Of a stretch of 64,000 bases of DNA, positions 1 to 64,000 are shown in pieces. Every line of letters starts with the position of its first letter. The first letter of the stretch is position 1. The stretch is taken from positions 558,001 through 622,000 of the forward strand of contig JAMYGW020000001.1 in assembly GCA_025617375.2 (NCBI GenBank), written 5' to 3'. The notes beneath the pieces are model-generated. The model was not told where the DNA came from. It saw nothing but the letters and a program-made list of their open reading frames with translations, and did no database searches. This DNA comes from Acarospora socialis. Taxonomy: Eukaryota > Ascomycota > Lecanoromycetes > Acarosporales > Acarosporaceae. Both the position numbers and the translations under genes were made by a program.

Positions 1-153
1 TTTTTTTTAGAAAAATAATTATGTTTAATTTAATCAGTTACTTAACAATTTACTAAGAAATTAAATTTTACTGTTGCAGTTAAGTAATTATTATATTAAT
101 AAATATAAACTTTTAACTCATATATTAAAGAAATCTCTGATTAAAATGTAATA
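1..153 (+). mobile_element. LTR 3' end, Ty3/gypsy family G (fossil)
   Basis: This matches the last ~150 bp of the 5' LTR of G1 (3751-4082) and, in reverse complement, the solo LTRs at 14811 and 23429. It ends in the degraded family terminus TGTAATA (family end CGTAACA). The window cuts it on the left, so it may be a solo LTR or the end of an element lying outside. It is heavily mutated. Confidence 0.8.
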
Positions 154-1003
154 TTTATTAAATAAATAAACTTTTTATTAATTAATGTACTTTAACTTTG
201 TATTAAATATTTAATACAATAAATAATTTATAATATTTACATATAATGTTTATAAAGTATATTATAAATATATAGTTAAATAAAAAGTACTTTGTAAAAT
301 TATTATTAAACAATTTTATGTTAATAATATTTATCAGTTAAATTTTACTTAATTATTATGTATTAACTGATTTTAGTTTATTCTGAACTATTAAAAAAAA
401 TCTGATTCAGTTTTATCTGAAACTCAGTTCTGAACAGAATTAAGTTAAGTTATAAAGTTAAACTCAGTAAACTGAATCAGATTTTAAAATCTAAGTTTAA
501 TTTAATTCAGTGATCACTTTAACTATTAAAAGTTATGTCAGTAATATAGTTAATTTAAAAACTTTCTTTAAAGAAAAAAAAATTATAATAATAAAAATAT
601 AAAAATTCATGAGTTTAAATCTATAAGTTTAGAAAGTAAATATAACATAAAATTAATAATATTAAATATCTTTTTTACTAATTATAATTATAATCATTAA
701 AATTTAAACTAAATGTTTAAATTAAGTTAAACTTTTAAATTAAATCTGACTTAAATCTTTAAACTTAAAATTTTAACTTAACTCAGTTTAAATTAAAAGT
801 TCAGGTTAAATCAGTCAGAATTGACTTAACTCAGTGATTACTTTAGTTATAGTATTTTTATAATTTTTAAAACATTAATTTTTGACTATTATTTATTAAA
901 TACATTATAACTTAATATATCTGATATAGAAAATTAAAACTTAATATTTTTTATTTAATATTTTATTATTACTCATTTATTTTTTTTATTAATATTATTT
1001 AAT

Positions 1004-1106
1004 GTATTAAAAATTAAGTCTAGTTACTCATCTGTCTTACTGTATTACATAGAAAATACTCACAGTATTTAGTTTAATAATAATAATACTAATTATTTTA
1101 ACAAAT
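1004..1106 (+). repeat. Direct repeat, copy 1
   Basis: It shares the core CTGTATTACATAGAAAATA, and the sequence around it, with 2210-2310 in the same orientation. The 1.1 kb between the copies contains the only longish open frame of this block. The pair could be terminal direct repeats of a small element or a simple duplication. I do not recognise the family. Confidence 0.6.
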
Positions 1107-2209
1107 TATGAGTTTAAACTTCATGTAATTTACACTTAAATCTGCTTCATTGTTATTGTTCTGTTTTAAACTACAAAAAGTTTTATGTTCATAAGTTATT
1201 TTTTATCTTATTATTATCTTTATTACAATGTTAAATCTTAGTGTTAACATCTTTATTATTTTTAAACTTACAGAATATAACTTTACAAAATGACTTATTA
1301 ATATATAAATTTATTTATAATAAAGTAAACTATAAAAGTATATTCAGAAGACTGCATCAAAAAAAACTAAGAAAATTAAATGAAAAAAAAGCAGTAAATA
1401 TTATAACACTAACATTATCTGTTAAAATTAAAAGAAAACTGACAGAAAAAAACTTTAATGATAAGTATAAAATATTTACAGAGTTAAGTAAACTTTTGTA
1501 ATTTAATAATGATACTCAGTTTATGCATCTTATCTGTAAATATTATACTTTACAGTATAATGAGTATAAAAATAAATTTTTTTTTAACTTTCTTATACAT
1601 GTGAAAGTTCTTAAAGAATGTATTAATTTAATAAACATTTAAATAAACAATGATAAATAAACTCTTCTTTATTTATTAATAAGTCTGTTAGTTCAGTATC
1701 ACTTTCTTATATAAATCTAAAGTGTTACTGATGATATAATAACAGTAAAGATAACAGAAATGTTACTAGAAAAAAAGTAAAAATTAAAGAACAATAATAA
1801 ACTTAATAATAAACTTATTATGATGTCTATACAGAGTGAAAAAAAAGAAATAAACAAGAAAATATAATACAGTTACTGTAAATAATCAGAACATACTGTT
1901 AATTAATGCTGAAAGAAACATCTGAAATTAACTTTAAAAAAAAAACTAACTCTTTAATAACTTTAAGTTTTTAAAATATATTAATGATACATTAATAGTT
2001 ATTACATTGATATTACATTAATAATGAACACTGATAACACACTGATTAAATTATGTTAATAATATATCAGTAACTATTATATAAGTAATACATCTGTAAT
2101 ATATACTGATAAAACACTGATACAGTTATTAAACTGATGATACACTAATAAAATATAATGTTTTTACTTTTCTGACAGTGACAGTAACAATATTTAAACT
2201 CAGAAAATA

Positions 2210-2310
2210 TATTAAAAATTAAGTTTAATCACTTATTTATTTTACTGTATTACATAGAAAATATTCACAGTGTTTAGTTTAATAACAATAACATTAATCA
2301 TTTTAATATA
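2210..2310 (+). repeat. Direct repeat, copy 2
   Basis: This is the partner of 1004-1106, in the same orientation and diverged by transitions. The inverted-repeat arm starting at 2403 follows about 95 bp downstream. Confidence 0.6.
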
Positions 2311-2755
2311 ATGTTAGAATTAATTATTTTTTACTTTACTAGACTTTTATTTTTATTATTATCTTAGAATTTTTAACTTTTTAACTTTTTAATAACTTTA
2401 ATTAAAGTGATAACTGAACTAAGTTAAGTTTAGATTTTAAAACTCAGTTTAATTTAACTCTGCTTAAAACTGAGTTTTAAACAGAGTTAAGTTAAATTTT
2501 TCTTAACAGTTCAGACTAAATTAAAATCAGTTAATACATAATAACTAAGTAGAATTTAAATTAATAAATATTACTAACACAAAACTATTTAATAATAATT
2601 TTATAAAAAGCTTTTTATTTAACTATATAATTACAGTATACTTTATAAGCATTATATGTAAATATTATAAACTATTTATTACATTATATATTTAATACAG
2701 AACTAAAGTATATTAATTAATAAGAATATTTTCTTAATAAAGTTAAAAAGTATTA

Positions 2756-3750
2756 AACATTATTTTGTTTTTTGTAATTTTACTGGTGTAATTAGATCTT
2801 TTTTCTTATGTAACTTTATTTATTAATTATAATTATAATTATTAAAATTTATTGAAATTAAAGAGCTCTTTAAAAGTTTAACTCTATCTGATCTAGTGTC
2901 AGAATCTTTTGAGTCACATGATATTGCTTAGTCATTACATGTAACTGTTATTCTTTATGTATTCTAGTCTTTTAGAAAATTAAGACATTTAATATTAAGT
3001 AATAAAAATGTTTCATTTTAACAGATTATGAGTCTGACTTTTCATTTTATCTAAAATGTTTTCTTGTCTTTAATTAATCTTGCTGTTATCATTTTCAACA
3101 GTATCTTTTATTATTTTAATAATTTATCTGAGTGCTTTCTTACATAATCTTTCTTAATAGTTTATCTGTGTACTTTCTTGAGTTATCATCTTAATATTCT
3201 TAAATGATGTTTTTCTTTTGTTTTTTTAATAGTCTATGTGTTTTAATGTTTATTTTACAGAAATAACTCACATAATTATGACTTTCTTAAATAATACTTT
3301 TAATTTCTCTTGTTTTACTGACACTGATAACTATATTTTATGAACTATTAATGTTAAGTTTATTCTTATGAACAAAAATCTATAAACTGTTGTTTCTGAC
3401 ACATTCTCTGAACCTGTCATTATATCTGAAGTGATTAATAATTTAAACTTAAAGTTCTTGTCAGAATACATCATCTGAAGTAGAAAAAATGACAGAACAT
3501 GTTTTATTATAACTCTTTTTTGTTAAAATGACTCTAAAAACTTCATTTAAGATTTATCTGTTCATTAAATGTAGTTAAAACTGAAGAAATTGTATAAGAT
3601 TTAAGAATTTAATGTCAGATATCTCACATTCACTATACTTCTTAGTCATTATTATAATATCTTTAAGTTCATTGAGAACTATGTTGATTTACTTAAGATT
3701 TCATCATGATATTTAAAAAAAATGAATTTTATCTTTTTAAACTGAGTTAT
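2756..3750. other. AT-rich stretch without a recognised gene
   Basis: The composition is less extreme than that of 1-2755. Minus-strand translation around 3000-3350 is fairly continuous in lysine- and isoleucine-rich residues if TGA is read as former TGG, which may be a decayed coding sequence. No family motif is visible, so no function is proposed. Confidence 0.3.
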
Positions 3751-8335: not shown

Positions 8336-8339
8336 ATAA

Positions 8340-12560: not shown

Positions 12561-13190
12561 AAAAAGCATAAACAAGATACTGTACAATTCTGTTTCACTT
12601 TTACAGTAAAGTTGTTGTATTATGTTCTACTTTAATTATTGTTTCATCTGTATTCAAAGCTTCAAATGTGAATTAGAATTACACAACTTCTCAGAGTGTG
12701 ATTCACTCATTTTAACATCACACAATGTGAGCACTGTGCACATATCTCATTCAAACAAACCTGTCAGGTGGGAAGAAACCTCAAGATTCATTGTGAATAT
12801 TGAAATTATTTGATCTGCAAGAGAGTCTTCTTCTTAATTGTTACTCAGTGCAATCTCAAGAACTTGAGAATCATGAGCAGCTGAAAATAGACACACTTAA
12901 AAAGAGATTCTTCTTTTAAAGTCTGACTTGATTTCATCTCAGCATGCACTCTGAGTTTGTCACACTCACTTTATGTCTTGCTTGTTTCTTTTTCATCATC
13001 ATCATCACAGTAAGCTAATATGAACAGAGTCAGTCAGACACTCATGCTAGACTAGATCTTTCTTCTGATGTGTTCAATACATATGCTGCTCAAGTAGAAC
13101 ATGATACAGTGCAAATGAAGTACATAGCTTTAATAGTGTTCAGTGCCACCTACTAGCAGTCTTCAACTAATAGATTACTCAAGTCTTCAG
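12561..13190. other. Gap between kinase and pogo transposase
   Basis: No gene is recognised. A short patch near 12760-12790 keeps GG and CC and so is less mutated than its surroundings. The DNA-binding (CENP-B-type) half of the transposon would be expected here but I could not read it. Confidence 0.3.
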
Positions 13191-13760
13191 ACATAAACTG
13201 AGTCAAAACACTCAAGAAACACTGTTCAGAGCTCAAAGCAAGAAAAAACAGATCACTGAACTGAAACTATTACAATATTTATGACAAGATCATGCACTGA
13301 TTTGAGATGATCAGAAAGATATTGTATAAGCTGAACATTGTGTCAAAAAACATCTACAACATGAATGAAACTGAAATCATATTAAGTATGTCAGATTCTG
13401 TCAAAGTTCTTGTAGATAAAGATGATATCTGAGACTATAGAGATGTGCATATTAAGTGAACAATGATAACTGCTATTGAATGCATTTCTGTGAATGATCA
13501 CTCTCTGACACTCATGATAATTTGGTTAGCTAACACTCATAGAAGCAATTGAATCACATATTTCATCTCTGAATGACTTTATGTGTACTTTGATACAGAA
13601 TTTTCTGACTTCTACATCAGCTTGCAGTGACTTACTCTTTGTATTTCTGGTCACAGAGCATCTCAAAATCTATTCAGCATCAGCTTGCAACTTCTGAACA
13701 TGTGTGATGAGCTGTTGACAGCATGTAATAAATTACATTGTTGCTCTCTGCACACCTGAC
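13191..13760 (+). pseudogene. Fot1/pogo-type DDE transposase fragment (Tc1/mariner superfamily)
   Basis: The reading from about 13199 contains NIYNMNETEIILSM, which corresponds to the pogo block NIYNMDETGxxLS. The first catalytic Asp is now Asn (AAT at 13364-13366) and the Gly is Glu, both expected from GG-to-GA change. SVKVLVDKDDI, TMITAIECIS and LMIIWLANTHRSN follow in the right order for fungal pogo transposases. The second part, with the central Asp and CDG-type segment, is damaged: after the ISLQ block it departs from the family, suggesting a deletion. No terminal inverted repeats with TA duplication were found. This is a plain, dead DNA transposon. Confidence 0.7.
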
Positions 13761-13799
13761 TGCACTTACTTTATATTTAAGTTTGTCACTGTTCTTTCT

Positions 13800-14030
13800 T
13801 TGTGCTACAATGATGATGACAATGATGACAAGCACAGCAATGTACACAATGATGGTGGCAACTGCCACCACAAGACATGATGAGACATATTGAAGAAGCA
13901 CACAACAATAGTGAGCACAATGGTGAGTACAACAGCAGACACAACAATAATGACAACAGTCATCACAAGACTAAACAAACAGCAGCTGGTGAGCATGATG
14001 ACAGAAACAACTATTGCAAGACATAAGAAG
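13800..14030. repeat. Low-complexity GAT/GAC/ACA-rich tract
   Basis: The tract is built of short imperfect repeats such as GATGATGACAATGATGAC and CACAACAATAATGAC. It can be read in several frames, which explains the minus-strand open frames here. The repeats GGTGG and CCACC near 13855-13870 survive. Confidence 0.6.
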
Positions 14031-14810
14031 TAGAGAGACAGTCAAGAATGTGCATGCATAGAACTCACCAGTAGTTCTTGAGACTGAAAGCTGTCTTGAT
14101 TCTGTTGTAGCAATTCAACATTTATTTTCAGAAGATCTTGAAAATTCAGCACTTGTGCTACTTTGAAGAAGATCTCAGAGTTATGGTCAAGCTTGTCACA
14201 GAATCTAGTTAGTGAATTAGTGACAGCAGCAGATCATGATGAAAGATATCTTATCTCTTTTATTTTCTCAACATCAATAACAGGTTCTTTCTAGTGTGAT
14301 GTGAATATTTTAATTATTCTAAGTGTTTCAACATTGTAAATTAAGCAACAGTGAGATGGTCTGACAAGAGGGATGACTCAGATAACAGAGAAATACATTA
14401 TATCTTTCATTGCTTTCAGTACTCTGTAGTTAACACTGCAGAAGAAAGTCATACAAAGATGATATGACTGTTGTTAGAGCAAGATGTGTCTGTACAAGAT
14501 CTGTGATGACTTTCATCTCTTCATGATGCAGGTTGAGAATCTGTGAGTACTCATAGAAGTGCTATATAATGAGTCAAGACTTAATGGTAAAGAACCACCA
14601 AAAGTATGCAATAGAGACACTAAACAGTGAGAAGTTAGCTGGTCTTCAGTTTCAATGAGAAGATTTTGTCAAATGATAATCTGCATGTACATTGTTGCTT
14701 CAAAATAAGAAAAGCAAGTCTTCTGACATATTGATTCTTGATTTCTTCATCATCAACAATATTATCTACACTAGTGCAGACAAAATCTATACTTCATTCT
14801 GCAATCATTC
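14031..14810. other. Mutated stretch, possible decayed minus-strand coding sequence
   Basis: On the minus strand around 14400-14100 a fairly continuous reading exists if TGA is taken as Trp, but no family is recognised. The stretch ends at the target-site duplication (CATTC, 14806-14810) of the next solo LTR. Confidence 0.3.
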
Positions 14811-15143
14811 TGTTACATCTCAATTGAAAATTTCTCTGATATAGAGTTAAGAATTTGTGCTTATTGATATAATGATTACTTGACTGCAACAGTAGAGTAA
14901 ATCTTTAGTAGATTGCTAGATAACTGATTGCTTTGAACATAATCATTTTCATAGAGAAAACAATTCTACTATATACCAGACCACTTAATGGTCTCATTAC
15001 TGAGTCTATTGAGCTGCTGAGCATCTGCTTGTAGTGTTCACTCTGCTCACTGTCAATCTTGTTGACTTATTGAGCAGTGCTTTCTGTACACATATTCAGT
15101 ACATCTGATTCTGTTTTAAGTCTATTTCAGCTTGACTGTAACA
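14811..15143 (-). mobile_element. Solo LTR of gypsy family G, mutated
   Basis: It is 333 bp, starts TGTTAC and ends GTAACA, and is flanked by a perfect 5-bp duplication CATTC (14806-14810 and 15144-15148). No internal element sequence is present, so it arose by LTR-LTR recombination. It aligns end to end with the clean solo LTR at 23429-23781 and carries the local transition pattern. It sits 51 bp past the stop codon of the AAA+ gene. Confidence 0.93.
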
Positions 15144-15194
15144 CATTCAACATCAAGTTTATTGAGAAAGACATTATCTCAGAATCACAGATAA

Positions 15195-20370: not shown

Positions 20371-20640
20371 TTGAAATGAATTCATGGCAGTTCACTCACA
20401 AGTTTGAACCTTCTTTCTCATGTCTTAGCAGAACAGTCTTCAAGATAGAACTCTGTTGCAACATCTTTCAAATGATTTTCAACTTGTAGAATACTTCCTT
20501 TCCTGCTAGAGTGCTCAGTATGTTGTCATATGTATACATGCAAGATGTACATTTGGAAAACACAGCATCATCTATCACACAGACTCACAAACATAAATGT
20601 TTGAGCAAATCAATTGTTGTTGGACTGCAGCATCTCTTAC
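20371..20640. other. Short gap, nothing recognised
   Basis: This is CpG-poor, moderately mutated DNA between a plus-strand and a minus-strand coding-like region that face each other. Confidence 0.3.
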
Positions 20641-20659
20641 ATGGGGTTTCAGTGTCACA

Positions 20660-23781: not shown

Positions 23782-23786
23782 CTAGC

Positions 23787-30147: not shown

Positions 30148-30155
30148 AACAGAAT

Positions 30156-38336: not shown

Positions 38337-38341
38337 TATAC

Positions 38342-47500: not shown

Positions 47501-47800
47501 GTAGTCAAGAATATAACAAAGAACTCATGTGTGTCTGAGAGTGTGAAGATCAATAAAACTTTGATGTAAAAAGAAGATTGAGTGTCTGCTGAAAATAAGA
47601 CTGATATACAAACAGAAATAAAAGATAACTCATCTTTGAATTCTTTGTTGAAAGAAAACAAAGACATCAATATTTCATCAAATATCTCTATTCTTAATGA
47701 TAGTGTCAATATTGAACTGAATACTTTTATGTACAATAATGAGATCAGTTTTCAGCAGAATACTTCTATGCATGATGATGAAGTCAGTTTTTAATTACAT
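44582..47800 (+). pseudogene. UPF1-like superfamily 1 helicase (AAA_11/AAA_12 type), decayed
   Basis: The gene opens MQSIYNDTIMMKKKFKVNK. Reading with TGA as Trp passes a long N-terminal region (45080-45900: RYSANL-type and ERTD-type blocks seen in fungal UPF1-like proteins) to the helicase core. TIIDELIEKIDTA at about 46130 follows a very damaged Walker A region that I could not place. IVFMNEAVKIIKSDVIII (46660-46700) is motif II, family DEAA, with Asp now Asn. MMIKDYKXIK (about 46740-46768) is motif III, family GDxxQ. Later blocks (47000-47340) read as AAA_12 (QLQFNFKNKNLHAIQ). An acidic, repetitive tail (47582-47794; YNNEISFQQNTSMHDDEVSF) follows. It lies 0.6 kb downstream of SNF2-like copy 1, on the same strand. 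Confidence 0.6.
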
Positions 47801-49680
47801 ATCTTTATTTCTGATGACAGTAATGATGCACAGTTAAGTGCTTTCATTGATGACTAAAATTTATTTCTTTCAGATTCTTTCACTACTGTATAAGTTTTAC
47901 ACAATATATCAGAAAATTCTGATTTCAGCTGAGATGTCAAGAATAAAAATGCTTAAAATGACATTATTGACAACTAAAAGATAGTTAAAACAGCTCTGAT
48001 AATATTTTTAATAATTTCTGTTAAGATGATTGAGAGCTTCTGTAGTGTATTATGATGAAATATGATTGTTTTAGTCAAATAGATATGCATCTTGTCAAAT
48101 TATGAATTCAAACTTACAATATTCACTGAACATGTGACAGATTCAATGAACACAACATGATAATTATAAAGCTGTGTGAACTTCTATGCAGTGATCATTT
48201 AAATATACACATTATTTTATCACAAATTCACTCTTCAATGAATTTGCATCAAACAAAAGATAACACTTCAGCTGCATATCAATTCATATTTTATTTTACT
48301 CAATTCTTTGTCTAATCTGCTGCTTCATTACAAGTATTTAAAACTGATTCAGATTGCTTTCTTGCTGTTATAGATGATTCAACTTTAAATTTCACAATGT
48401 TATTATATTAATTAAGAGAAATACTACACTTAAACACACTGATGATTTGACAAATGAAGAGAAATTAAAAATAAAGAATCTCACACAGTTACAAAAGATC
48501 ATTTTTATAATTCTGAGCAACAAAAATAAAATTAATATTCTGATTGATGAATGACTAGAAGAGCATGTACTGAATTTAAAAAATCTTCAATTCAATGTGA
48601 GTCAAGAAACAATAAAATCATTGTTGCAGTTACTTTACACTCAGTTAACACATTACTTTGAGAATAAATCTTACAGATTCATTAAACTGTGCATGAAGTT
48701 TCTGATTCAATGCAGACTTGTTAATAAAAGATGAAAATTAAAATTCAAAAACTCAAAGAAAAATTTACTTGTCAGAAGCACAGCTCACTCAACTTCAAAG
48801 TTTACTTCAGAGAAGACAGAGTCAGAATTAAACATTATGTCAATAATTATTTTATCACAAGAAATACTGATCATGACTGAAGCTAAGATCTATAATATAC
48901 AAACAAAACACATATTACATACTGAAAAAATCACAGAGCTCAGTTCAGTCACAATACTTGATGTTACACTTTTCAATGTGAATTCAGAAAGAAACAAATA
49001 CAGTTAGCTGTTTTTTGTAATGTGAAAGAAGTTACTCAGCAAAGATATTGAATACATTAAAGATAACATTATCAGCTACAACTTCAAGAACTTTTAAATG
49101 AAGATCAATAAAGATAGAAAGTTCTGTACAGCTGTCATTGATGTTAGATAAAAAAAAAATATTGTACATTAAGTTTGAAGTTATTTTTCTGAAGAAGATC
49201 TATAAGTTTAAATACTTCTTGAATGTAAGATAACTATTTAAATAGCTTTATTCTAATATTCTGTCACTCAATATTGATCAAACATGCTATAGAACTGAGT
49301 GAAAGTGTAAATACAACAGACATCAGTAAAATTGCATTTCACAATTATAAATCTGACTTGAAACAATCTGTTAAACATTGAAAGATCAGTAAACAAAGAC
49401 AAAGAACAGCATGTTTATCTGCAAAACTGAGAAATAAAAATCTTCATAATCAGAGAAAAATGTATTCTGATATATCAGAAGAGCAAACTTTAATAGATAT
49501 TTTTAACAATGTTATGAGTATGATATCTGAATCTTGCATGATTAACAACTCATTGTTGACAATATTGCAACAACTAACACAATAATAACTATCATCAATA
49601 ACACTTCTGAACAACAGTTTATCATTAATGTTACAGAGTTATAAGTATCAAAATCTTTAACAACTTTTATCATTAAAACT
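47801..49680 (+). other. Possible decayed coding region upstream of SNF2-like copy 2
   Basis: Between about 48480 and 49160 the plus strand reads fairly continuously (LEEHVLNLKNLQFNVSQ, MTEAKIYNIQTKHILHTEKI) with few stops for this compartment, suggesting former coding sequence. I recognise no family. 47801-48400 shows nothing. Confidence 0.3.
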
Positions 49681-50442
49681 ATGAAGACTCAAGCAGCAGC
49701 AACTTCAACAACATTTATTATCAAAATTATAAAATCACAAACATTAACAATTCTGACAACATCTATCATTAAAGTTACAGAGTCACAAACATTAACAACT
49801 TCAACAGTATTTATCATCAAAACTACAGAGTTACAAACATCAAAAACTTCAATAACTTTTATTATCAAAACTACAGAGTCACAAGCAGCAGCAACTTCAA
49901 CAACATTTATTATTGAGACTATAAAGTCACAAGCATCAGCAACTCTGACAACATCTATCATTAAAGTTACAGAATTATGAGTATCAGCAACTTCAATAAT
50001 ATTTATTATTAAAGTTACAGATTTACAAGCATTAAAAACTTTAACAACTTCTATCATTAAAGTTACAGAGTCATAAGCAGCAGCAACTTTGACAGTATTT
50101 ATCATTGAGACTATAAAGTCATGAACATCAGCAACTCTAACAACATTTATTATTGAAGTTATAGAGTTATGAGTATTAACAACTTCAACAACTTCTATCA
50201 TCAATGTTACAAAAACTCAAGCAGCAGCAGCTCTGACAGTGTCTATTACTGAAGTTATAAAGTCACAAGCAGCAGCAACTTTGACAGCATTTATCATTAA
50301 AACTATAGAGTCACAAGCATCAGCAACTCTAACAACATCTATTACTGAAGTTACAGAGTCATAAGCAGCAGCAAATTCAACAGCAACTGTGACACTAACT
50401 ACAATCAATGATATTGCAAAGAAAACATCTATTATCAGTACT
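49681..50442 (+). pseudogene. SNF2-like helicase gene, copy 2, 5' part (N-terminal repeat region)
   Basis: The part starts MKTQAAATSTTF and consists almost wholly of a 48-bp coding repeat (16 residues). It is cut at 50442 by copia B. The duplicated GTACT at 50438-50442 and 55918-55922 shows that the gene resumes at 55923. Copy 1 has an unrelated 10-residue repeat at the same place. Confidence 0.6.
49690..50400 (+). repeat. 48-bp coding minisatellite (16-residue QAAATSTTFIIKTTES units, about 15)
   Basis: The units vary as QTLTILTTSIIKVTES, QASATLTTSIIKVTEL and similar. Phase is kept through about 15 units, even where Gln has become a stop. The antisense frame is also open (171 codons, Val-rich), which I reject as a gene. 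Confidence 0.92.
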
Positions 50443-50662
50443 TGTTGAGAAGTGCAGTGTTCTAGCTGCTTTCATAGTCTTAGTTGAGACTAACATCAAA
50501 AGTTACTCATTACTCATATAGTCTGCATAACAGAGTATGTGAATAAATAATCTCTACAATTCATATTGATCATGATCAAATCAACAGTGTATGTTTCACT
50601 AAATAGACAGTTAGTCAGCAGTATAGCATGAGTATTCTTTTTATTTTTCAATAAATTCAATA
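50443..50662 (+). repeat. 5' LTR of copia B
   Basis: It is 220 bp and starts TGTTGAGAAGTGCAGTGTTC. It is the best-preserved start of this LTR family in the window. Confidence 0.92.
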
Positions 50663-53600
50663 AATTATGAGCTCAAGTTAGCAAGAAGTTTCTCAGAGAA
50701 AATACATACTGTTCTAATATCTTGACAGCTTGATACAAAAACTCAAAGATTAAACAAAATAAACATTACTAATCATTGATACAGAACTTTAAAATTGAAC
50801 AAAATAACACTCTCAACAGCTTAATACAAGATCAAAACAAACACTTTTGATCATTGATACAGAGTTCAAAGATTGAGCAAAATGACATTTTTGACACTTG
50901 ATATGAAACTTTAAGATTGAGCAAAATGAAACTTATTGACAACTCAATATGATGCTCAACAATTAAGCAAACAAACACACATACTTCTTCTTTCTCTTAT
51001 TTACATTATCTTCTTCTGTACATCTTAATACTTCATTTTATTTATTTTTTATATTATGTGCTGACTGTCATCAAAAGCTACATCATAAATTTCAACAACT
51101 CTTTCACAAAACAACAACTCATTTCAATTCTCAGTCACAAGAACTGTAATTAATGATTCACTTTTATGAGAAAATGACTGATAGATGAAGATTTATGATA
51201 TATTGTTGAGATCTCAGTGATCAACACTTCTGTCAGTAACTTCTTCTTTTTATTCAGCAATTTTAACTTTAGAAGTCAGAAGTCTGACATAAAAACTTTG
51301 TACTGATTCATTATTTATATCAGTGTAGATGATTAGAAGTACATTGCAGACAAAATCAATGCAAAAAATATTTAAAATATCTTGAAATTCAAATACAAGA
51401 AGAAGCTGCAGATCACTGAAAGACAATATTTGATAAAGTTTATTGAATATAGAATGTTGACAAATATATTCATTAATGAAGCATGAACACATCTCAGCAA
51501 GTTGAACAGAAAAATTGCTGTAACTCAGTCTGATATGACTGATCTATTTAAGTCTGAGTAATGATTTCAGACACTTCTTCAAGCATTATCTGAGAATTAC
51601 ACAATGATTTATAATACAATCAATGTTCAAAACATCTTAAACATTGAAAGAAGTCTGCAGAAGCTTTAAGAGAAAAAAATACAATTAAAAACTATTGAGA
51701 CTGTCTTGTGAGCAGATTGACACAAAGAGAAAAATTCAACACACTCATATCAGTATGATGTGAAATATCATTATTGAAGATTGTCAAGCTTCAGCAATAA
51801 CTGTTCTTCTCAGTATAAATTAGTTAAATATTTTCTCTGTTGTGATTCTCATCACATTTAAGACTGTAAATATCTTTCTGCTGCTCACAAGAATATTAAA
51901 TTAAAAAAGTTATTTATTTTAATTGTGATCAAATCAGTCAGAAAGTTAGACAAGTTGTTTGCAGACAACTCACATCATAAAAACAAAAAAAGATTTAAGA
52001 ACAGAAACAGAAAGTATAAAGTTGTTAATGTTAAGACTGAGAAAAACAATGACTCATTCTCATCTGAGTCTGATGCAGAGAAAAATAATGAGATTGTCAC
52101 TCTGTTTAAGAAAACTGTCAGTAAAATATTCAGTTTTGAATGAGTTGTGAATTCTAAATACTTCACACACATAATTGATCAATATTAACTTTTCAGTGAC
52201 TCTTTGATATGCATATGATGCTGAAGAATTAAAGTTGAGAAAAAACAATTATACTCTTATTACTGTGAAGTAGCTGTAATGTAAGACAAATTCAGAAACT
52301 TTATAAATCTGAGTTCAACACTCTATGTGTTTAAACTAAAAGTTAATCTTCTATTGAAAAAGCAAATGTGCAAAATGAAATTGCAGAAAAGCTTTGATCA
52401 GCACAGTCTTTATATGTGAAATAAACATGACAATATCATGATAAAAGTATCTGAGTGAGACAGTGTCTACATAATCAAACACATTGTAAAAAAACTGAAC
52501 AAGTTCACTCTGTTATCTGTTATACACATGTTATTTAATTCAGAAATGATTCTTTCAGTCACAGTATCAAATGTAAACTTTCAGATGCAGACTGATCTGT
52601 TAAGCTTTGCTGACACTTTATTTTCTGCTGACACTTCATTCTTAAGTGAAAAGATCAAGATCTACAAGTTATAACATCAATGATTTGTTCATCTTGACTC
52701 TATAAAACTTCACAATCTTCACAAAGTTATAACTCTTGAGAAGTCAATCTTCATTGCTGAAGACAAGAAGAACATGTGTGAAGTTTGTGCTATCATCAAG
52801 TTTGTCAATCAGTAAAAACACACTGTAAATGAGTAAAAGATCAACATTCTTGTTTTAATTTTCATTGACATATACAATTTCTTATCTCTATCATTTGTTG
52901 AACATCAGTACTTTTTGAAGATTGTAAACAACTATTCTTGAAAGACATAAACAATATTGCTGAAGTGATGTGATAATGTTTTACAAAAACTATAAAAGTA
53001 ATGATTAAAAATTGAGCTTCAGACTAATATGAGAATGCTTACTATACAGAGTAACAATGTTACAGAATTAAGATCAATTCTGAATGACTGATGCAAATTT
53101 TTTGACATTACACTGCAGTACACTATGCTCTACATGTTTATTCAGAATAATGTTGCTGAAAAAGTCATTTGTATCACTGAGAATTCAGTGCACATCATAA
53201 TCAAGAAGACAAAACTTTCAATAAAGTTTTAAGCAGAGATAGTGCAAATAGATATTTATTTTCACAACTGAAACTAATTTCTTAATCAATAACAGATAAA
53301 TAATTTTGAAGAAGATCTTCACTGATGTACAGCTATTCATTGATCATATCTGTGTTTAAGATTGCAAGTACTACTTCTATGTTGATCTCAAGTTGTTGTT
53401 GAAGAATAGACAGAATAAGTTCATGAATTAAGAATAAGTAAGAATTTTCATGAACTATATGAATAAAATCACAAAACAGTATTTGCTTTAAGTCTCAGAT
53501 CTTAAGTAAATCATTAAAAGTTATGCTGTGAAGTTTGTTGAGAATGAAAAGAAAAACAGTGTTGATCTCAAACTGCAAAGATAAATGCTGAACATTCTGT

Positions 53601-55697
53601 CTGAATAAAAGTTAATTGAGTAATCACAAAAAAATGCAGTCATCACAAATTCTACAACATCTACAACTCTGTTTACTGTCTTTGAACAGACTTATAAATT
53701 CAGATTTATGAGTTCAGATGACAAAGAAAAGTTTAAGTTAACTATAAACAATTTTGACACATTCTCATCAGACATTCATATGATAAATAAATCAACTGTA
53801 ATCAATTTAAACAGATCACAGACAAGTGAACAGAGTGAGATCAAACAGTTTTTATACATTGAAGTTTCTGTCAGCAAAGCATCAAATATTTTAATTGAGA
53901 AAGTCAAGATATTTTTGTGTGTCAAGATTTCAAAAAGAAAATGAAATGACAACAATAAAGACTTCAATAAACTCATGATTAAGATATGATGAACTATGCT
54001 GACACTCACAATATTCATTACAGATAATGAGAAAGACACTGAAAACATTAAATTTAACATTTTCACATCTGTCATCTATGTTGAAGCAGTGAGAGACTCA
54101 GTTTGAAAAAAGATATAAAAGAATGTTATTCATGCAGAGTTGACAGTTCTGACAGTCAATGAAACATAAAAAAAGATTATATCATCAAAAAATACAAATA
54201 TAGTGATCAGCAAGTGAGTATTCAAATTTAAGCTGAACACTGATGAATTTCTGAATAAATTTAAAATAAAAGTTATGACAAGAGATTTCTCACAGATGTA
54301 TAACATTGATTATGAAAACATCTTTACATTTATAGTTAAGTTCAACATTCTTTGAGTCTTTCTTGTCATTATTATTCTTGAGAATCTTGAATATCATTAA
54401 GTAAACATCAACAATGTCTTCACAAAATTCTTTTTTAAAAAAATCATCTACATAACAGTTTCTTTTAAAGTTCAAGTTGCATCTGACTGTGCATTGTGTA
54501 TACTGTGTAGTCTCTATGATTTAAAATAAACTATGTAAAATTGATATAAATGATGCATCACTGATCTGCATAAGTTAAACTTTCATTAAAGCAATATTAA
54601 CTTATGTCTTCTCATCAACAGTGTCAAAAGAATCATGCTGCTTCTTTATGTAAACAATATAATTATAGTCTCAGTAAGTCTGATACATGTTCTCTGATTC
54701 AAGAAAGCTTTTGTGAAAATGTTCAAAATTAAGAATTTAAGAGAGACACAGAAAATTCTTAACATATAAATTACACACAACTGCAAAAGAAGAACTTTAT
54801 ATCTAGATTAGACTCATTATGTAAATAAGATGCTGAGAGATCTTTATATGTGATTTAATAAGCACAAGATCATGACAATCTCACTCAATAAATATAATGT
54901 TCTTTGTCTTATCAGCTCAGCTGATCAAAGAATAGATTAAAGATAGTATTAATATGTAATTAAAAGTCTGATATATGCAGTGATTCATACTTAATTAAAC
55001 ATTGTCTTTACTTTAAATCAATTAAGTCAGTATCTTAGTGATCTCACAGAACATCATGAATATGTGTTTAAGAAATTGCTGTAATATGTGAGATCAATTA
55101 TTAATTTTAATATTGTGTATAAATTCAGTGAGAGTCAAGTCATGCTTAAATACTCTGACTTTAACTAGGCATCAGACAAGCAAGATTGAAAGTTAATTTT
55201 AAAACATATATACATGCTTAAAGACAAATCAGTATCATGAACAAGTCAAAAACAGAAATCTGTTATCATTTCAATTACAGAGACTGAATACATGATTATA
55301 TCAATATGTATAAAGACTGAGATTTAACTTACACAGATGTTGCAAGACATGAATATGAACAAGTATCTTGAAGACAATTTATATCATGTAAATATCAAAA
55401 AAAATGAAGTTCATTGAGCAGTCTCATCTCTTTAGCTCAAGAAAAATAATCAGATTGTCTTGATTCTGATTAAGAATGTACATGTGCATGAGTGATTAAA
55501 ACATATTGACATTATTTATCATCATATTTGTGATCTGCACAAGCAAAATCAGATTGATGTGAATTTTGTGCTCAGTCAAGACATGATGACTGATGAATTA
55601 ATTAAGTTTTTATCTAAATAAATCTTTAAGCACTTTGTTGAACAACTGAAACTTGCTGTTAGTAAAAGTCAATAGATGCAGCATTATTGAGTGAAAA

Positions 55698-55917
55698 TAT
55701 TAAGAAATATGATGTTCTAACTGCTTCTATAGTCTTAGTTAAAATTAACATCAGAGATTACTCATTACTCATATAGTCTGCATGACAGAGTATATGAATA
55801 AATAATCTTTACAATTTACATTGATCATGATCAAGTCAACAGTGTATGTTTCACTAAATAGACAGTTAGTCAGCAGTATAGCACAAGTATTCTTTTTATC
55901 TTTCAATAGATTCAATA
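55698..55917 (+). repeat. 3' LTR of copia B
   Basis: It is 220 bp, the same length as its partner, and followed directly by the GTACT duplication. Confidence 0.92.
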
Positions 55918-55922
55918 GTACT

Positions 55923-58640
55923 AAAGATTTATGACTGACAGCAAACTCAATTAGTACTGCAACAATAACTTCAATTAGCAACACTTTTAAACTTATATCT
56001 ATTATCAATATTACTGAGTCAGCAACATCAGTAAGATCATTCAAAGTCAGACTTGCTGACAACATAACTTCAATATTTCACAATGATATTGTAAAAGATA
56101 TTTTGAGCATCAAAATTCATCAGTTAAAGTCATCATCTATAATTAAAGAGTATGTTAGATTCAATTATGTGAAATTGAGAATCTGACTAACTAAATTTTG
56201 CAGACTTATAACAAACATTAAATTAACAGTTACTGAACATCTTCATGAGAAAGAATGCTGACAAAAATATACATAACTGTTTTTTCATGATTCAGTAAAC
56301 ATTGTCTTAAATGAAAAAATATATATTCTGAAGCTTCACACTTCATTATATCTGTATCAGATTTTTAAGATATTTGTAATGTTTAAGATGAAATTATTTC
56401 AAGAAGAAGAGTACAATGCTGATGACATAAAATTAAAAAAGATAGACAACAACTTTAATTCATTGTCTTTTAAGTAAACAGTAAACACTGAATTTACTGA
56501 ACAGATCATCAAGTTGTTGAAAGTTATTTGTTTAAATTGAACTTTTGAGAAAGCTCATGCAGAAGTTTTAACTGCTCATAAGAATAAGTAGTTCAACAAA
56601 CATTTAATTTAAGAAACAGTTATTTCATCTCAGTCATTAAATACACAATGTTCATCTGACAGAAAGTTCAGCATAGAGTATTTTTGTGTTGATGATGATT
56701 CAGTAAGTTGTTTAAAGTCTCAATAAAGTTCTAATTTAATTGTGATCTCAGTTGACTTAATTCTTAATTAATTGCAGAAAGTTAAGAAACATCTTGATTT
56801 AAATAACAAGTTGATTAAATGAGAAGTATGTCATGCATATAAGAATAATAAGATAAACATACATGTCAAAAAGCTTTTTGCTAAAGATCAAAGTCTTTTT
56901 AAATATTAAGTTAATATAAATAATATTATACATCTGCAGTTCAGACAGTTACAAATCATCATCATCATAATTAAGAGATCATATAATAATTATGTGAAAT
57001 CAATCATGCAAGACATAATTCATCTGTTTAAATTACTCAGAAAGAGAAAAGTGCTGTCTTCAGTGATTAAATCTTGAGATATAAACTGAAAAAGAGTTGT
57101 CATCAACAAAACTCATACTGAGATTAGTTTTAGTGTCACAACAGTACATATGTTTGCAATCTTTGATCTCACTGTCAAAAAAATAATTTCTTACTGACAC
57201 ATCATTTGAATTCTTGTCTATTCAAATGATAGAGTGAATCAATATCATTGAGAATGTCTATTAAATCAAGTCTACTTCTCATTCTGACTGATTAAAGAAA
57301 CAAATATATCAAAAAAAGCTTAAATACTGCACTGAGAGTCAGATTTGAGAATTGAATAAAACATACAAACATTTTATGAAAAACAAAAAGTCAAATTCAA
57401 CAGTCAGAGCTCAGCACATCAAATCATTGATGATAGTTCTTGAAACTTTATGACTGAAGTGAAGTGCAATTCAGTTCACATTCTTTGATCATTTTCTAAT
57501 TGATGTATTACTCAATATACATCAAATTATTGACTGTTCATTATCATCTGAGTTTTACAATATTGTCAATGAATCAATTGCAAACATCTCAAACAAAATG
57601 AAGAAAAATCTTCAAAAAAAGTAACAAATGTAAAAGCAGAGCAACAAACTGAGAGTTCAGTTAACAATAAGTGTAAATGACTGACTGTAGATAATAAGAA
57701 AAGTATGTGTTCTAAGTACATTTTCATTGTTAAAGAAGTTAAAAGTTACAAAAGATCTAAGTTTATCTGAAAAGCAAGACAAAAATAATGATTGATTTTG
57801 CATGAAGCAAGAAAGTCTGTATGAGCTTGTGTGATATAATTCATTATATGAGAAACACATTGTTGAGATATGTGCAAATCACAACTTCATCAAGATTCAC
57901 ACAATTAACAATCTTATTTAAACAAAATAAGAATCAGATAAGAAAGCAGTATTTTATTCAATGAATTTTACAGTTGCTCTTATTCTATACTGAGTAAGTT
58001 AAGAGTATATGCACTGATAATTTATTGATACAGTATCAACTTCATTAAGAAAAATGATCAGAGCAATGCTGACTTTAATATAGTACATATATTTAGTTCT
58101 TAAAGCTTCAGTAATTCTCATTTACTCTGAATTGTTCAAATTCAGATTGATTAAAATTGTGTGATTGTTTCAAAAGATGTCAAAAGTTATTAAATGTAAT
58201 TTAAATACATCACATTCTCAGTACATTGTTGACATCACAAAACTTATTGAAATAGAATATACATTACACAGAGCAAAGAAATTGATGATCATTGATTCAG
58301 AATAAATAAATTGCAATTATAAACAAATTAAGAAGTAAATAAATCAGATAAAACAGAAGACACAGACAATTACATATGTTTTATACTGTGTAAAGTTAAA
58401 AGTTAAAAAGATCTTCTATGATCAACAGAATTGAAGAACTTATCTTTTGTGATAAATTTTAAATCTAAACACTTTTAATCAGAATGATGTAATCAGAGAG
58501 ATGAACAATGATGAGAATAATGATGTGAAATTTATTGCAGATGAGAATTTACTGCATGAAGATAATGATTATGTGAAGAACAATTAAAAGTAAAAGATAT
58601 AAAATGATACTAGAGTGTCAAGAAGATAGTTTAGTTCAAG
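55923..58640 (+). pseudogene. SNF2-like helicase gene, copy 2, 3' part
   Basis: The part resumes after the copia insertion with SNTFKLISIINITESATS-like Ser/Thr repeat remnants, then the conserved pre-helicase region (56100-56460; VTEHLHEKE, LYLYQIFKIFVMFKMKLFQ) shared with copy 1. The helicase core is more damaged than in copy 1. After it, HFLIDVLLNIHQIIDCSLSS (about 57490-57550) and the block at 57840-58560 align with 41880-42660 of copy 1. The divergence between copies, beyond shared transitions, indicates separate paralogues rather than a recent duplication. The gene is non-functional. Confidence 0.65.
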
Positions 58641-58799
58641 ATTAAAAATATTTTGAAGTGATCTTCTGTTCTAAGTGTGTGCATAGTTAGTGTTGTGATT
58701 GATATTCATACATCAACTCAACAATGTATGTGTGTATTCTGCAAGTAACTCAATAAGTACATTGAATATACTTACATCATCAACAAGTATTAATTGAAC

Positions 58800-59050
58800 A
58801 TGATTTCATATTTTTACATGTTCAATGAACAAGACACACAACATTGCATGTTCAATGAATGAAACACACAATGTTGCATGTTCAGCAAATGAGATTCTCA
58901 TTGTTGAAGATTCAGTGAATGAGTCACTCATGATTGCATGTTCAATGAACAAGTCTCTCATTCTTCAAATTTCAATTAGTAAATCACTTATGATTGCATG
59001 TTCAACAAATAAGTTGCTCATCTTCACTAACAGTTCAAATATTCATTGAA
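58800..59050 (+). repeat. About 33-bp TTCAATGAAC-type tandem repeats
   Basis: The units contain GCATGTTCAATGAACAAG and are read as MIACSMNKSLI-like peptides over 74 codons (58825-59049). Similar words occur after SNF2-like copy 1 (42890-42970). This is probably a decayed minisatellite, not a gene. Confidence 0.6.
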
Positions 59051-59188
59051 CATGTGAAATAATGCAGCTCAAAGAGCTCAGAGCTGTTTTATGAAGCTTG
59101 AAGTGTGCTTTGAGTCAGAAAATATCACTTTAAGCTTAATAATCTTTGCTTATATTTGTGAGCTGTCTTTCAACTTATCAATGTGTGC

Positions 59189-61972
59189 TTTACATGTTTA
59201 TTCAGAATAATATTGCTGAAAAAGTCATCTGTATCACTGAAAATTCAGTGTACATCATGATTAAGAAAACAGAACTTTCAATAAAGTTCTAAGTGAAGAT
59301 AATGTAAACAGATGTTTATTTTCACAATTGAATAGCAATTACTTTCTTGATTAACAACAGACAAATAACTTTGAAGAAGATCTTCACTGATGTACAGTTA
59401 TTTATTGATTACATTTGTGTCTGAAATTGCAAATACTACTTTTATATTAATCTTAAGTTGTTGCTGAAAAACAGACAGAACAAATTTATAAATTAAAAAT
59501 GAATAAAAGTCTTCATGAACTATACAGATAAAAATACAAAGCAGTATTTGCTTTGAGTTTCAGATCTTAAGTGAATCATCAAGAATTATGCTGTAAAGTT
59601 TGTCAAGAATGAGAAGAAAAACAGCATTAATTTCAAATTGCAAAGATAAATACTGAACATTCTGTCTGAACAGAAGTTAGTTAAATGATCATGAAAAAAT
59701 ATAATTCTTATGAATTTCACAATATCTACAACTCTGTCTACTGTCTTTAAGCAAATTCACAGACTCAGACTCATGAGTTTAAATGACAAAGAAAAATTTA
59801 AATTAATTGCAGACAATCTTAACACATTCTTATTAGACATTTATATGATGAATAAATCAATCATAATTAACTCAAACAGATTACAAACAAATAAACAGAG
59901 TAAGATCAAACAGTTTTCACATATTGAAGTTTCTATCAGCAAAGCATCAAATATTTTAACTGAAGAAGTTAAGACATTCTTGTGCATTAAGATTTCAAAA
60001 AAAAAACAAAACAATAACAATGAAGACTTTAACAAGTTCATGATTAAGATATCACAAATTATGCTGACACTTACAGCATTCATCACAGATAATAAGAAAA
60101 ACACTGAGAACATTAAATTTAATATTTTCACATTTGTTATCTATGCTGAAGCAGTGAGAGACTCAATCTGAGAAAAGATGTAAAAAAATACTATTTATGC
60201 AGAATTAATGATTCTGACAGTCAATAGAATATAAAAAGAAATTGTATCATCAAAGAATACAAATATAATAATCAACAAATAAATATTTAAACTTAAACTG
60301 AACACTGATGAATTTCTGAACAAGTTTAAAACAAAAATTATGATGAAAGATTTCTCACAAATGTATAACATTGATTATGAGAACATCTTTATATTTATAA
60401 TTAAATTCAACATTCTTTGAGTCTTTCTTATCATCATTGTTTTTAAAAATCTTGAATGTCATCAGATAGATATTAACAACATTTTTACAAAATTCTTTCT
60501 TAAAAAAATTATCTACATAACAGTTTCTTCTGAAATTCAAGTTGCATTTAACTGTGTATTGTGTATATTGTGTAGTCTTTATAATCTGAAGTAAATCATA
60601 CAAAACTGACATAAATGATGCATCACTGATCTGTGCAAACTAAACTTTCATTAAAACAATATTAATTCATGTTTTTTCATCAACAGCATCAAAAGAATCA
60701 TACTGCTTCTTTATGTAAACAATATAATTATAGTTTCAGTAAATCTGACACATGTTCTCTGATTTAAGAAAGTTCTTATGAAGATGTTTAAAGTTAAGAA
60801 CTTGAAAAAAATACAGAAAATTCTTGACATACAAGTTACACACAACTATAAGAGAAAAACTCTACATCTAAATCAAACTCACTATGTAAATAAGATGCTG
60901 AAAAATCTTTATATGTAATTTGACAAGCACAAGATCACAATGATCTTACTTAATAAATATGATATTTTTCATCTCATCAGTTCAGCTGATCAAAAAATAG
61001 ATTAAAGATAGTATTAACAGATAATTGAAAATCTGATGTATATAATAATTTATATTCAATTAAACATCATTTTTGTTCTAAATTAATTAAATTAATATTT
61101 TAGTGATTCTGCAGAACATCATGAACATGCATTTAAGAAATTATTGTGATATGTGAGATCAATCATTAATTTTAATATTGTGTATGAACTCAATAAAAGT
61201 TAAGTCATATTTGAATATTCTGACTTTAACTATGCATCAGACAAATAAGGTTGAAAGTCAATTCTGAGACATATATATATGCTTGAAAATAGATTAATAT
61301 TATAAATAAGTTAAAAACAGAAATCTGTTATCATTTCAATTACAGAGACTGAATACATAATTATATCAATATGTGTAAAGACTGAAGTCTGACTTACATA
61401 GATGCTGCAAGACATGAATATGAACAAGTATCTTGAAGATAATTCATATCATGTAAACATTAAGAAAAATAAAGCTCATTAAGCAGTCTTATCTCTTCAG
61501 CTCAAGAAAGACAATCAGATTGTTTTGACTTTAATTAAAAATGTATATATGCATGAGTGATCAAAACATATTAACATTATCTATCATTATATTCATAATC
61601 TGCACAAGTGAAATCAGATTAATGTAAACTTTATATTCAGTTAAGACATAATGATTGATGAATTAATCAAGTTCTTATTTAAATGAATCTTTAAGTGCTT
61701 TGTTGAATAACTGAAACTTACTGTTAGTGAAAGTCAATAGATGCAGTATTACTGAGTAAGAATGTTGAGAAGTACAGTGTTTTAACTGCTTTTATAGTCT
61801 TAATTAAAATTAACATCAGAAATTATTCATTACTCATATAGTCTGTATAACAGAGTATGTGAATAGACAATCTTTACAATTTACATTGATCATGATTAAG
61901 TCAACAGTGTATGTTTCACTAAATAGACAGTTAGTCAGCAGTATAGCACAAGTATTCTTTTATCTCTCAATA
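59189..61972 (+). mobile_element. 5'-truncated Ty1/copia fossil C
   Basis: It aligns with copia B from about 53.13 kb (late integrase) through reverse transcriptase and RNase H to a 3' LTR at 61763-61972 (210 bp). LTR, gag, protease and the first part of integrase are missing at the left. The 153-codon frame at 59710-60171 corresponds to the linker after integrase. The copy is broken many times. Its right end abuts gypsy G2 directly, so it inserted into that element or a deletion joined them. Confidence 0.9.
61763..61972 (+). repeat. 3' LTR of copia C
   Basis: It is 210 bp and starts TGTTGAGAAG. It ends CTCAATA, matching the TGTTGAG terminal inverted repeat. Confidence 0.9.
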
Positions 61973-64000
61973 TTCTTTTCATTTCATGAGATAGTAAACT
62001 TTCTCTTTAATCATTCTTTTCTTTAAATGTTCTTAACTTTGTATTCTTTATCAGATTCAACAGATGTTTCAGTGACTTGAAGTAATATGAATTGATTGCA
62101 GTGCTGTAACATGAATGCATAAAATACTGAGTGTATTTTCATCTTCTTGAGTAAGTTTAACTCATAACTTAATTTCTTGATATCTCATATGATCTTAAAT
62201 AATTCAATGCTCTTATTCTTCAGCTTCTTGCTTCTTTCTTTTGTTTTTATTTTGTTTATTTTTAAATATATCTTTTCTTCTTTCTTAAATAATTTCATCT
62301 TTATCATTTGTCTCATCTGCTGTTCAATTCATCTCATTAGATCTCAATGCAGTTTTTTCAGTTGAGTAATGTTCAAAATTGCTTTTTGACTTTGTGATTT
62401 ATATCTCTGTGAATCTTATCACATCTTTGAATTGTAGTTATAGTTCATGAAGAAAGATGTTTTTTTTGTGATCTCATTCTTTGCATTATTGTACACAAAC
62501 TGTATCATTAACAACAGTTGTACTCAGTTGTTCTGATTCTCATTGATGTAGTGTTTTAAGTATGTTTTTACTGTTTAATTCATTCATTTGCTTTGTTCAT
62601 TTATCTGTGAATAATATATCATTAATATTTTGTGTCTTACTTCAAGTTTTGCTGTGAATGTTTCTCAAAACTTGCTTGTGAACAGCTTGTCTTTATTGAT
62701 GATAAACTCTTTTGATAATTTATGATTACTAATCAATTCTTACAATATAATATACATCAATACTGATGCTGTCACAGTTTCTCTAAATGAAATGAATATT
62801 GTGTACTTAATTAATTTGTTCACTATAATCAATATACTGTTAAATTTCATTCTTCATGCTAAATCTTTTAATGATGATAACTTCATGATGAAGTTCATAA
62901 TAATTAACTTTCATGATGCATCTAATGCATTTAGTTGTATTACTTCATTGTATTATTTATCTCAGTTAATTTTATTTCTTCAGCATGAGTTGTACACAGC
63001 AATCATTTTAATGATTTAATTTTTAAAATTGTTAATGTTGTATCTTCTTTACACTAAATTCTCAGTGCATTTAACTTTTAGATGTTCTCTGACTTTATTG
63101 TAGTGATATATTTTAATAAGTTTTTTGTTTGTCAAGAAAGCTTATTCTATCTTGTGTGTTGCTGCTAAATTCTTTGTGAGAATTTCATTTTTGTTTTTGC
63201 TGAAAATTTCAACATATATTGTCTGTACATTTTTATGATCAGATTATCTACTTAAGATATTTGCTTCATCATTTTTATTATTTTTCTTGTAATAAATCTA
63301 AAATTCATAGTCTGTCAACTGCTCTGCTCAATGAATCTGTCATTAGTTAAGTTATTTAGTTGTTGTGAAGTTTCTCAGATTCTTATGATTCATATAGATT
63401 TAAATTGACTTGTTTGTTTTTGTGAGATAAAATCTTCAATCTTATAGTACTTTCACTATTGCAAGAAGTTTCTTATTGTGAATCTCATATCTTTTCTTGA
63501 ATTCTGATAGTTTTTTAAATTGATATGTTATGAGTTTTTGTTGTTCATTTTCAATTTAATATAAACATACTTTTACTGCAAAATTTGAAGTGTTGATCTT
63601 CAGTATTTTCTTGCATACTGAATTGAGTATTCTCAAATGCACTGTTTCACTAAGACTTTTCTTTAATATGTGAAATGCATTTTTCTGATCTTTTTCTCAA
63701 TGTTATTCTTTGCTCTTGTGTGTTAAACACATTAGCAGTTTTGCAATCTTTGTGTATTCAGATACAAACTTTCAATAGTAATTCATTAATTTCAGAAAGA
63801 CTTGTACTTTCTTAATTCATTTTAATGTTAATTAGTTTCTGACTGCTTCTGTCTTTTTTAAATTCTTTTTAATTTGTTCAGATTGAATTATATAGTCTAG
63901 AAACTTAATTTTCTTGATCTTGAATCTGTTTTTTGACTTTTTTCATGTACAAGACTTTCTCATTGAGTCTTGTCAATATCTTGTGTACATACTCTCAATG
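61973..64000 (-). mobile_element. Ty3/gypsy fossil G2, 3' half, continues beyond window
   Basis: The reverse complement of about 62100-64000 aligns with 6500-8330 of G1: RNase H and integrase read right to left, ending at the conserved segment near 62130. The stretch 61973-62090 reads like the start of a chromodomain (EYKVKNI), absent from G1, which places this family among chromoviruses. The element is broken many times. Its 5' part lies outside the window and its 3' LTR is not seen because copia C starts there. Confidence 0.88.

Follow-up and report, generated by a model that had tools for sequence, protein, structure and literature searches.

In both strands of repeated DNA in the genome of the ascomycete Acarospora socialis, cytosines with C or G as the 3' neighbor have undergone C-to-T change. 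The rate is over 10-fold that of CpA or CpT, and CG and CC are almost gone as a result. We describe this hypermutation in a stretch of 64,000 nucleotides (here called the window; contig 1, positions 558001 to 622000; the genome spans 31.15 Mb over 38 contigs), which is mostly mutated to a GC content of ~0.27 to 0.30 and retains two islands at 0.47 to 0.49, and in loci sampled elsewhere in the genome. It is near certain that a 3' C or G marks the target. CpG change is no slower than CpC change, and CCA and CCT are changed faster than CCC. Neighboring DNA for which the genome search returned no second copy is partly mutated, the damage thinning over a few kilobases. The process works like repeat-induced point mutation (RIP) and is not classical, CpA-directed RIP; a differently targeted enzyme behind the rule is plausible, and it is the enzyme and the timing that we infer.

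Composition of the mutated block

The initial annotation had described CG, CC, and GG as nearly absent beside common CA, TG, CT, and AG, and counts in the transposon block at 27431 to 64000, set against 200 mononucleotide shuffles, bear this out. The block holds no CG (680 expected; standard deviation [SD], 22), 3 CC, and 10 GG, and the latter two together fall far from the expectation from base composition (13 against 1360; SD, 31); CA plus TG (5699 against 3631; SD, 46) and CT plus AG (4260 against 3621; SD, 44) are in excess. Individually, CA occurs 2948 times (observed/expected ratio, 1.58), TG 2751 times (1.57), CT 2080 times (1.16), and AG 2180 times (1.19). TC (2409; 1.35) and GA (2419; 1.32) are raised as products of CC and GG loss, as CA and TG are raised as products of CG loss; TA, which loss of CpA would yield, is not raised (3244; 0.67). 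The ratio (CC+GG)/(TC+GA) is 0.003 in the block versus 0.77 to 0.99 in the islands, whose dinucleotides proved ordinary, unlike those of the block. Seven of the 13 surviving CC or GG sites lie within one short element at 41348 to 41728.

Classical RIP is scored by TpA/ApT above 0.89 and (CpA+TpG)/(ApC+GpT) below 1.03. The block yields 0.72 and 1.51, and none of its 72 one-kilobase windows passes; the annotators' view that this is not classical RIP is upheld by these negative indices and by the lack of any preference for CpA. The pattern is not local to the window and holds in loci sampled across the genome: 18 of the 35 first-fetched loci have a GC content below 0.30, are spread over eight contigs, and in 67 kb (several overlap one another or the window) contain 2 CG and 116 CC or GG against 10293 CA or TG and 8222 CT or AG. 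The mutated loci sampled are transposon copies or adjoin them, and C:G-to-T:A transitions dominate with few other changes, as in RIP broadly defined. The loci of three methyltransferase genes are unmutated, with a GC content of 0.51 and many CG.

Stop codons follow the same rule. A search for reverse transcriptase domains (150 candidates scored of 435; 150 of 151 matches tallied) gave 418 TGA, 60 TAA, and 21 TAG in-frame stops as raw counts, unnormalized for Trp and Gln numbers; TGA was the majority in 113 of the 127 stop-bearing matches listed, tied in 12, and was outnumbered in 2. Such an excess is expected if TGG becomes TGA while CAA and CAG mostly stay intact.

Mutation context in transposon copies

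The same search brought up a young family with both open and broken copies, a non-LTR (long terminal repeat) retrotransposon. In one intact copy, a frame of 1327 residues contains endonuclease, reverse transcriptase, and RNase H domains. Eight of twenty 1.15-kb pieces, 99 to 100% alike, served as the intact reference for the other twelve, which are damaged; the 12 of 1153 columns that vary among the intact copies were left out. In the damaged pieces, C-to-T change affects 153 of 648 CpC (23.6%), 18 of 60 CpG (30%), 30 of 2424 CpA (1.2%), and 14 of 1692 CpT (0.8%) sites. Over 4.15 kb, we compared six damaged copies with two intact reference copies, excluding columns where the intact copies disagree, columns with gaps nearby, and regions in which a span of 81 columns held more than three differences other than transitions, gaps being counted. 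Here, the rates are 38% for CpC (414/1091) and 35% for CpG (23/66), compared with 2.8% for CpA (104/3717) and 3.5% for CpT (98/2815), over a T-to-C background of 1.1% (159/13833). After subtraction of that background, the pooled CpC rate is 22-fold that of CpA and 16-fold that of CpT. Taken singly, each of the six copies has a CpC rate that exceeds its CpA rate 11- to 20-fold (in one, 88/142 versus 14/448). The distinct context rule proposed from the window thus stands, and CpA is not mutated as much as CpC; CpT proves to be spared along with CpA.

Counted by position, 47 of 54 CC, 5 of 5 CG, 15 of 202 CA, and 10 of 141 CT were hit in at least one of the twelve copies, as were 15 of 737 positions in the T-to-C direction (CC versus CA, Fisher P = 1.5e-30, among copies that share ancestry). 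Positions hit in exactly one copy number 9 for CC, 11 for CA, 7 for CT, and 7 for T-to-C; the CC figure is low because most CC positions were hit in several copies, through recurrence or shared descent, and the per-copy counts avoid this bias. The mutated base is the 5' C of CC: in the twelve pieces the middle C of CCA was hit in 2 of 432 cases, and TCA and TCT were hit in 4 of 684 and 4 of 456. In the six longer copies, the second 3' base matters (CCA, 0.42; CCT, 0.39; CCC, 0.17), the lower CCC rate being partly expected because loss of the second C shields the first, and the effect of the 5' base is modest (ACC, 0.28, to TCC, 0.46). This retrotransposon is probably a centromere-specific element. 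All 40 copies scored, of 57 candidates (L037 to L064 included), lie in one cluster of at most ~150 kb per contig on 13 contigs (C1 to C12 and C14), for example at 2.65 to 2.80 Mb on C1 and 1.54 to 1.59 Mb on C5.

Older repeats add the slow part of the rule. The LTR-type element of the block, of which 17 further stretches longer than 4 kb occur elsewhere at 83 to 86% identity (17 candidates scored of 251), is unfit for rate estimates because every copy compared is saturated; copy 2 differs from copy 1 by 844 transitions and 23 transversions. The proportion of sites lost between pairs of copies is 0.21 to 0.25 for CpA and 0.23 to 0.25 for CpT, and between the terminal repeats it is 0.11 to 0.17 and 0.09 to 0.17, so that old copies have lost ~10 to 25% of both. 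The rule is therefore quantitative, with CpG and CpC lost fast and CpA and CpT lost slowly and alike. The initial claim that CpA is spared accordingly holds for young copies, where CpA change is far below that of CpC, and fails for old copies and for the first 4 kb of the window, where CA plus TG falls to 53 to 113 per kb at a GC content of 0.14 to 0.24; in the AT-rich zone there, CpA and CpT losses reach ~40 to 50%, as judged from one pair of short arms.

The short element within the block is absent from the homologous place at C4:843302-846897. Thirteen of its 16 mutated copies were each compared with the nearest of 10 GC-rich copies (three served), the other three being left out because the alignment was absent or shorter than 100 bases. 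C-to-T changes number 472 of 775 for CC, 309 of 562 for CG, 57 of 308 for CA, and 71 of 387 for CT, with T-to-C at 9 of 1710; for CG, a rate of 0.5 means every site hit once. The ten GC-rich loci hold matches of 113 to 255 bp to the 380-bp element; their short length, as expected under RIP broadly defined, may have let them escape, although length and location are confounded in them.

Damage extends beyond the repeats. CC plus GG per kb runs 52, 42, and 26 over 19 to 22 kb and 18, 9, and 2 over 25 to 28 kb of the window, and ~8 kb to its left, the passage from normal to mutated DNA is ~600 bases wide (L036:1800-2400). A genome search with 18951 to 22649 as the query returned only itself, with no paralogue for a mutated-versus-intact comparison.

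Table 1. Features of the window and their composition
Feature	Position	Strand	Remarks
Deeply AT-rich zone	1..3200		GC 0.14-0.24; CpA and CpT also depleted; inverted ~350-bp arms, widely repeated in the genome
Mutated flank	13000..17449		1-kb bins over 13001-17000: CG 0, CC+GG 2-14 per kb
Unaffected island	17450..18950		GC 0.49; CG observed/expected 0.69; CC observed/expected 1.03
Partly mutated stretch, no second copy found	18951..22649		CG observed/expected 0.03; CC/GG ~0.6
Unaffected island	22650..24850		GC 0.47; CG observed/expected 0.66; CC observed/expected 0.85
Partly mutated flank	24851..27430		CG observed/expected 0.00; CC/GG ~0.26, declining toward the block
Fully mutated transposon block	27431..64000		0 CG; 13 CC/GG; GC 0.273
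LTR-type element, copy 1	32877..38342	+	5.46 kb; ~211-bp direct terminal repeats
Short element, ~380 bp	41348..41728		Keeps 7 CC/GG; copies in GC-rich and in mutated DNA
LTR-type element, copy 2	50437..55920	-	By alignment to copy 1
LTR-type element, copy 3	55690..61985	-	Longer; aligned in several pieces

Other features of the window lie alongside these. A 48-bp tandem array (49570 to 50445; ~18 units by length; 300-nt registers 66 to 81% alike) stands just left of LTR copy 2, and the translated frames of the islands contain short tandem repeats of the PPYRQPTALSAAHR and VCALRRC types (18111 to 18560 and 24230 to 24765). The resemblance of one frame in 17450 to 18950 to an FKBP domain is weak (E = 0.013, which does not reach the cutoff). 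A Pfam search of the window's stop-free frames gave a single match over the cutoff, to DUF3435 (PF11917; E = 4.5e-7), in the mutated stretch 25475 to 26014 on the minus strand; we take this to be the captain recombinase domain of Starship elements. Positions 1 to 3200 and L036:8000-10000 alike have a GC content of 0.12 to 0.24 and palindromic repeats of ~350 to 380 bp that recur at many other sites; in contrast to the block, this kind of zone is positive by the classic indices.

Candidate enzymes and competing explanations

The annotation had proposed that RID- or DIM-2-like methyltransferases be sought, and the genome encodes both, together with a DNMT5-like enzyme, so named from its layout. 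The best solved relative of the DIM-2-like protein is 9bap (E = 1.3e-191), which is labeled a DNA cytosine-5 methyltransferase and which we take to be Neurospora DIM-2. The RID-like protein has a 665-residue first exon with a DNA methylase domain at 501 to 663, and a profile search for further RID proteins brought back the same 13. For the loop comparison, 121 proteins were fetched, with 120 of 717 relatives listed; among the matches listed, the nearest named relative is Pleopsidium flavum, and next come Sarea, Candelaria/Candelina, and Teloschistales. These are mostly lichen fungi, by which the host is probably an Acarosporaceae-like lichen fungus rather than Coccidioides. Among the proteins fetched, catalytic-domain identity is 80 to 92% for the 11 closest (P0001 to P0011) and 67% for the next.

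The motif IV (catalytic) loop of the A. socialis RID reads PPCQVFSWAHT, with Trp where most relatives carry Pro. PPCQVFS followed by Trp or Phe occurs in 9 of the 121 fetched proteins (5 Trp and 4 Phe), and all 9 belong to the 11 closest. The remaining 110 show no such loop, 10 of them being proteins in which the pattern did not locate the loop at all; beyond the 11 closest, Pro dominates and Asp occurs in 22. In M.HhaI, the aligned position is the Ile that follows PCQAFS, which we take to be residue 86, a DNA contact. We hypothesize that loop residue and rule are connected, from a correlation within one clade in which the mutation pattern is known from this genome alone. In its full form, the proposal is that in one lichen-fungal clade RID switched its reading of the 3' base from A/T to C/G by a loop change from Pro to Trp or Phe, giving an inverted RIP code in which CpG and CpC greatly outrank CpA and CpT; we hold this to be possible and distinctly tentative. 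The Asp loops read PPCQFFSDAH or PPCQYFSDAH (22 fetched RID-like proteins, e.g., P0027, P0032, and P0036), and some lichen fungi (Loekoesia and Haloplaca among them) have two RID-like proteins, with differing loops where both could be read.

The explanation that we favor, to which we give about an even chance, is a RIP-like genome defense with changed 3'-base specificity, probably led by RID. A RID/Masc1-type cytosine methyltransferase would lead the process, through methylation and deamination or through direct deamination, perhaps at the sexual stage; the altered preference would arise from the DNA-reading surface of the enzyme, the candidate being the loop PPCQVFS-Trp-AHT, and methylation of the DNMT5 or DIM-2 type may add to the loss of CpG. 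Several observations weigh against this explanation. Two of the 11 closest RID relatives carry the ordinary Pro. CpA and CpT positions were hit more often than the T-to-C background (Fisher P = 0.0004 and 0.003), and these contexts are therefore not untouched. Single-round Neurospora RIP is usually strand biased, and strand clustering is absent here (runs P = 0.28 to 0.87 in the six long copies; lowest P = 0.25 in the 12 short ones); such a bias could be erased by many rounds. RID dependence and sexual timing themselves enter the proposal as inferred steps. Finally, CG disappears before CC in places: it is nearly gone from 18951 to 22649 while ~60% of CC/GG persist, and the intact retrotransposon has 6 CG yet ~210 CC/GG in 4.15 kb at a GC content of 0.36 (L057 and L058), so CpG is lost also outside destroyed copies. 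The annotated equality of CpC and CpG loss thus applies to young copies and not to these places. The CpG poverty of the intact copies looks as if an active lineage had come through the mutation process or adjusted to it.

The early loss of CG, seen both in the flanks and within the intact retrotransposon, makes a second, CpG-specific process possible, and the DNMT5-like gene would supply an agent for it: maintenance methylation by DNMT5 or DIM-2, with deamination, would take CpG throughout heterochromatin, and a repeat-aimed RID would take CpC only. We regard this division of labor as rather unlikely, given that CpG and CpC rates are alike in freshly hit copies (23/66 versus 414/1091, with small CpG numbers). 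Decay of methylated CpG alone is ruled out, CpC being hit at a like rate. A slow vegetative deamination of 5-methylcytosine in heterochromatin methylated at both CpG and CpC, proceeding without a burst, would suit the lack of strand clustering and the existence of copies in all degrees of damage; we judge it unlikely, as the twelve copies still 95 to 99% identical to the intact ones have lost on average 23.6% of their CpC, and two copies of one cluster, separated by ~30 kb, are very unequally damaged, L048 keeping 59 CC plus GG and L056 only 20.

The remaining agents are highly improbable. UV light and APOBEC3G also act on CC, which recommends UV damage or a cytidine deaminase of the APOBEC/AID type; against both, it is the 5' C of CC that changes, with the middle C of CCA and the C of TCA and TCT nearly untouched and a modest 5' base effect, and the PF00383 deaminase family has only 7 exon-level matches in the genome. 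APOBEC/AID editing is ruled out as the sole cause, since the 3' base and not the 5' base decides, and a UV signature, in which C would change in TC and CC dipyrimidines regardless of the 3' base, is ruled out in the same sense by the counts for TCA, TCT, and the middle C of CCA. Classical CpA RIP in which CpG decay replenishes CpA is favored by the six windows at 1 to 4000, all of which pass the classic thresholds, and has as slender a chance: TpA is not raised in the block, young copies show CpA far below CpC, and the stops are TGA rather than TAA or TAG. For the main block, the context counts rule it out.

Relation to known fungal systems

The process resembles RIP of Neurospora crassa and other Pezizomycotina in its both-strand C-to-T changes in repeats, its leakage into neighboring DNA, its AT-rich blocks beside normal genes, and the presence of RID and DIM-2 homologues. 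In N. crassa the context order is CpA>CpT>CpG>CpC, and in Trichoderma reesei CpA and CpG are about equal, followed by CpT>CpC (PMC5496416); here, in contrast, CpG and CpC are far above CpA and CpT, and the classic indices are negative. A survey of ten genomes linked RID with CpA/CpT and Masc2-type enzymes with CpG and described CpA, CpT, and CpG signatures, and the word CpC does not occur in it (PMC4352252). CpG-biased RIP-like mutation in Tuber, Microbotryum, and Aspergillus likewise strikes CpG in transposons; unlike that type, CpC is hit here about as hard as CpG. For the basidiomycete Rhizoctonia solani AG8, a table of single-nucleotide polymorphisms gives one per 214 bp at CpC, 370 at CpG, 422 at CpA, and 491 at CpT; its authors describe a CpG bias, and genes are hit like repeats (PMC4014442). 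It shares CpC and CpG above CpA and CpT, which weighs against a claim of complete novelty, although its contrast is weak and uncorrected for site numbers, whereas ours is over 10-fold and confined to repeats and their flanks.

Mutated AT-rich repeats, as here, are also described in the lichen-forming Cladonia rangiformis, where ripped DNA peaks at ~16% GC and RID and DIM-2 homologues occur (PMC12542154), and Endocarpon pusillum, in which the classic CpA indices score the repeats as positive (1.47 and 0.70; PMC3897900); RIP is presented in the accessible text of both without a CpC/CpG rule, and dinucleotide context was not seen in that of the former. Methylation induced premeiotically in Ascobolus is reversible (PMC7862722) and has the RID/Masc1-type family in common with the present case, in which the sequence itself has been permanently altered. 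According to a survey published in 2025 and covering 1,239 fungal genomes, RIP-like defenses share a CpA preference (PMC12543289). We found no description of CpC-preferring RIP in the open-licence literature, a scope outside which the Clutterbuck 2011 context survey falls.

In summary, repeats in A. socialis have been destroyed almost completely with CpC, the least favored context in N. crassa and T. reesei, as a main target, and stop codons arise by conversion of Trp to TGA instead of Gln to TAA or TAG as in classical RIP. Since all 72 windows of the main block score negative on the classic indices, a species that follows such a rule might be taken to lack RIP. The question of how RID picks its sites becomes testable with a natural enzyme that differs visibly in sequence and comes from a genome of the opposite preference. 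If the loop reading is true, RIP would be retunable through a single enzyme surface, and this would have been overlooked in screens based on CpA indices.

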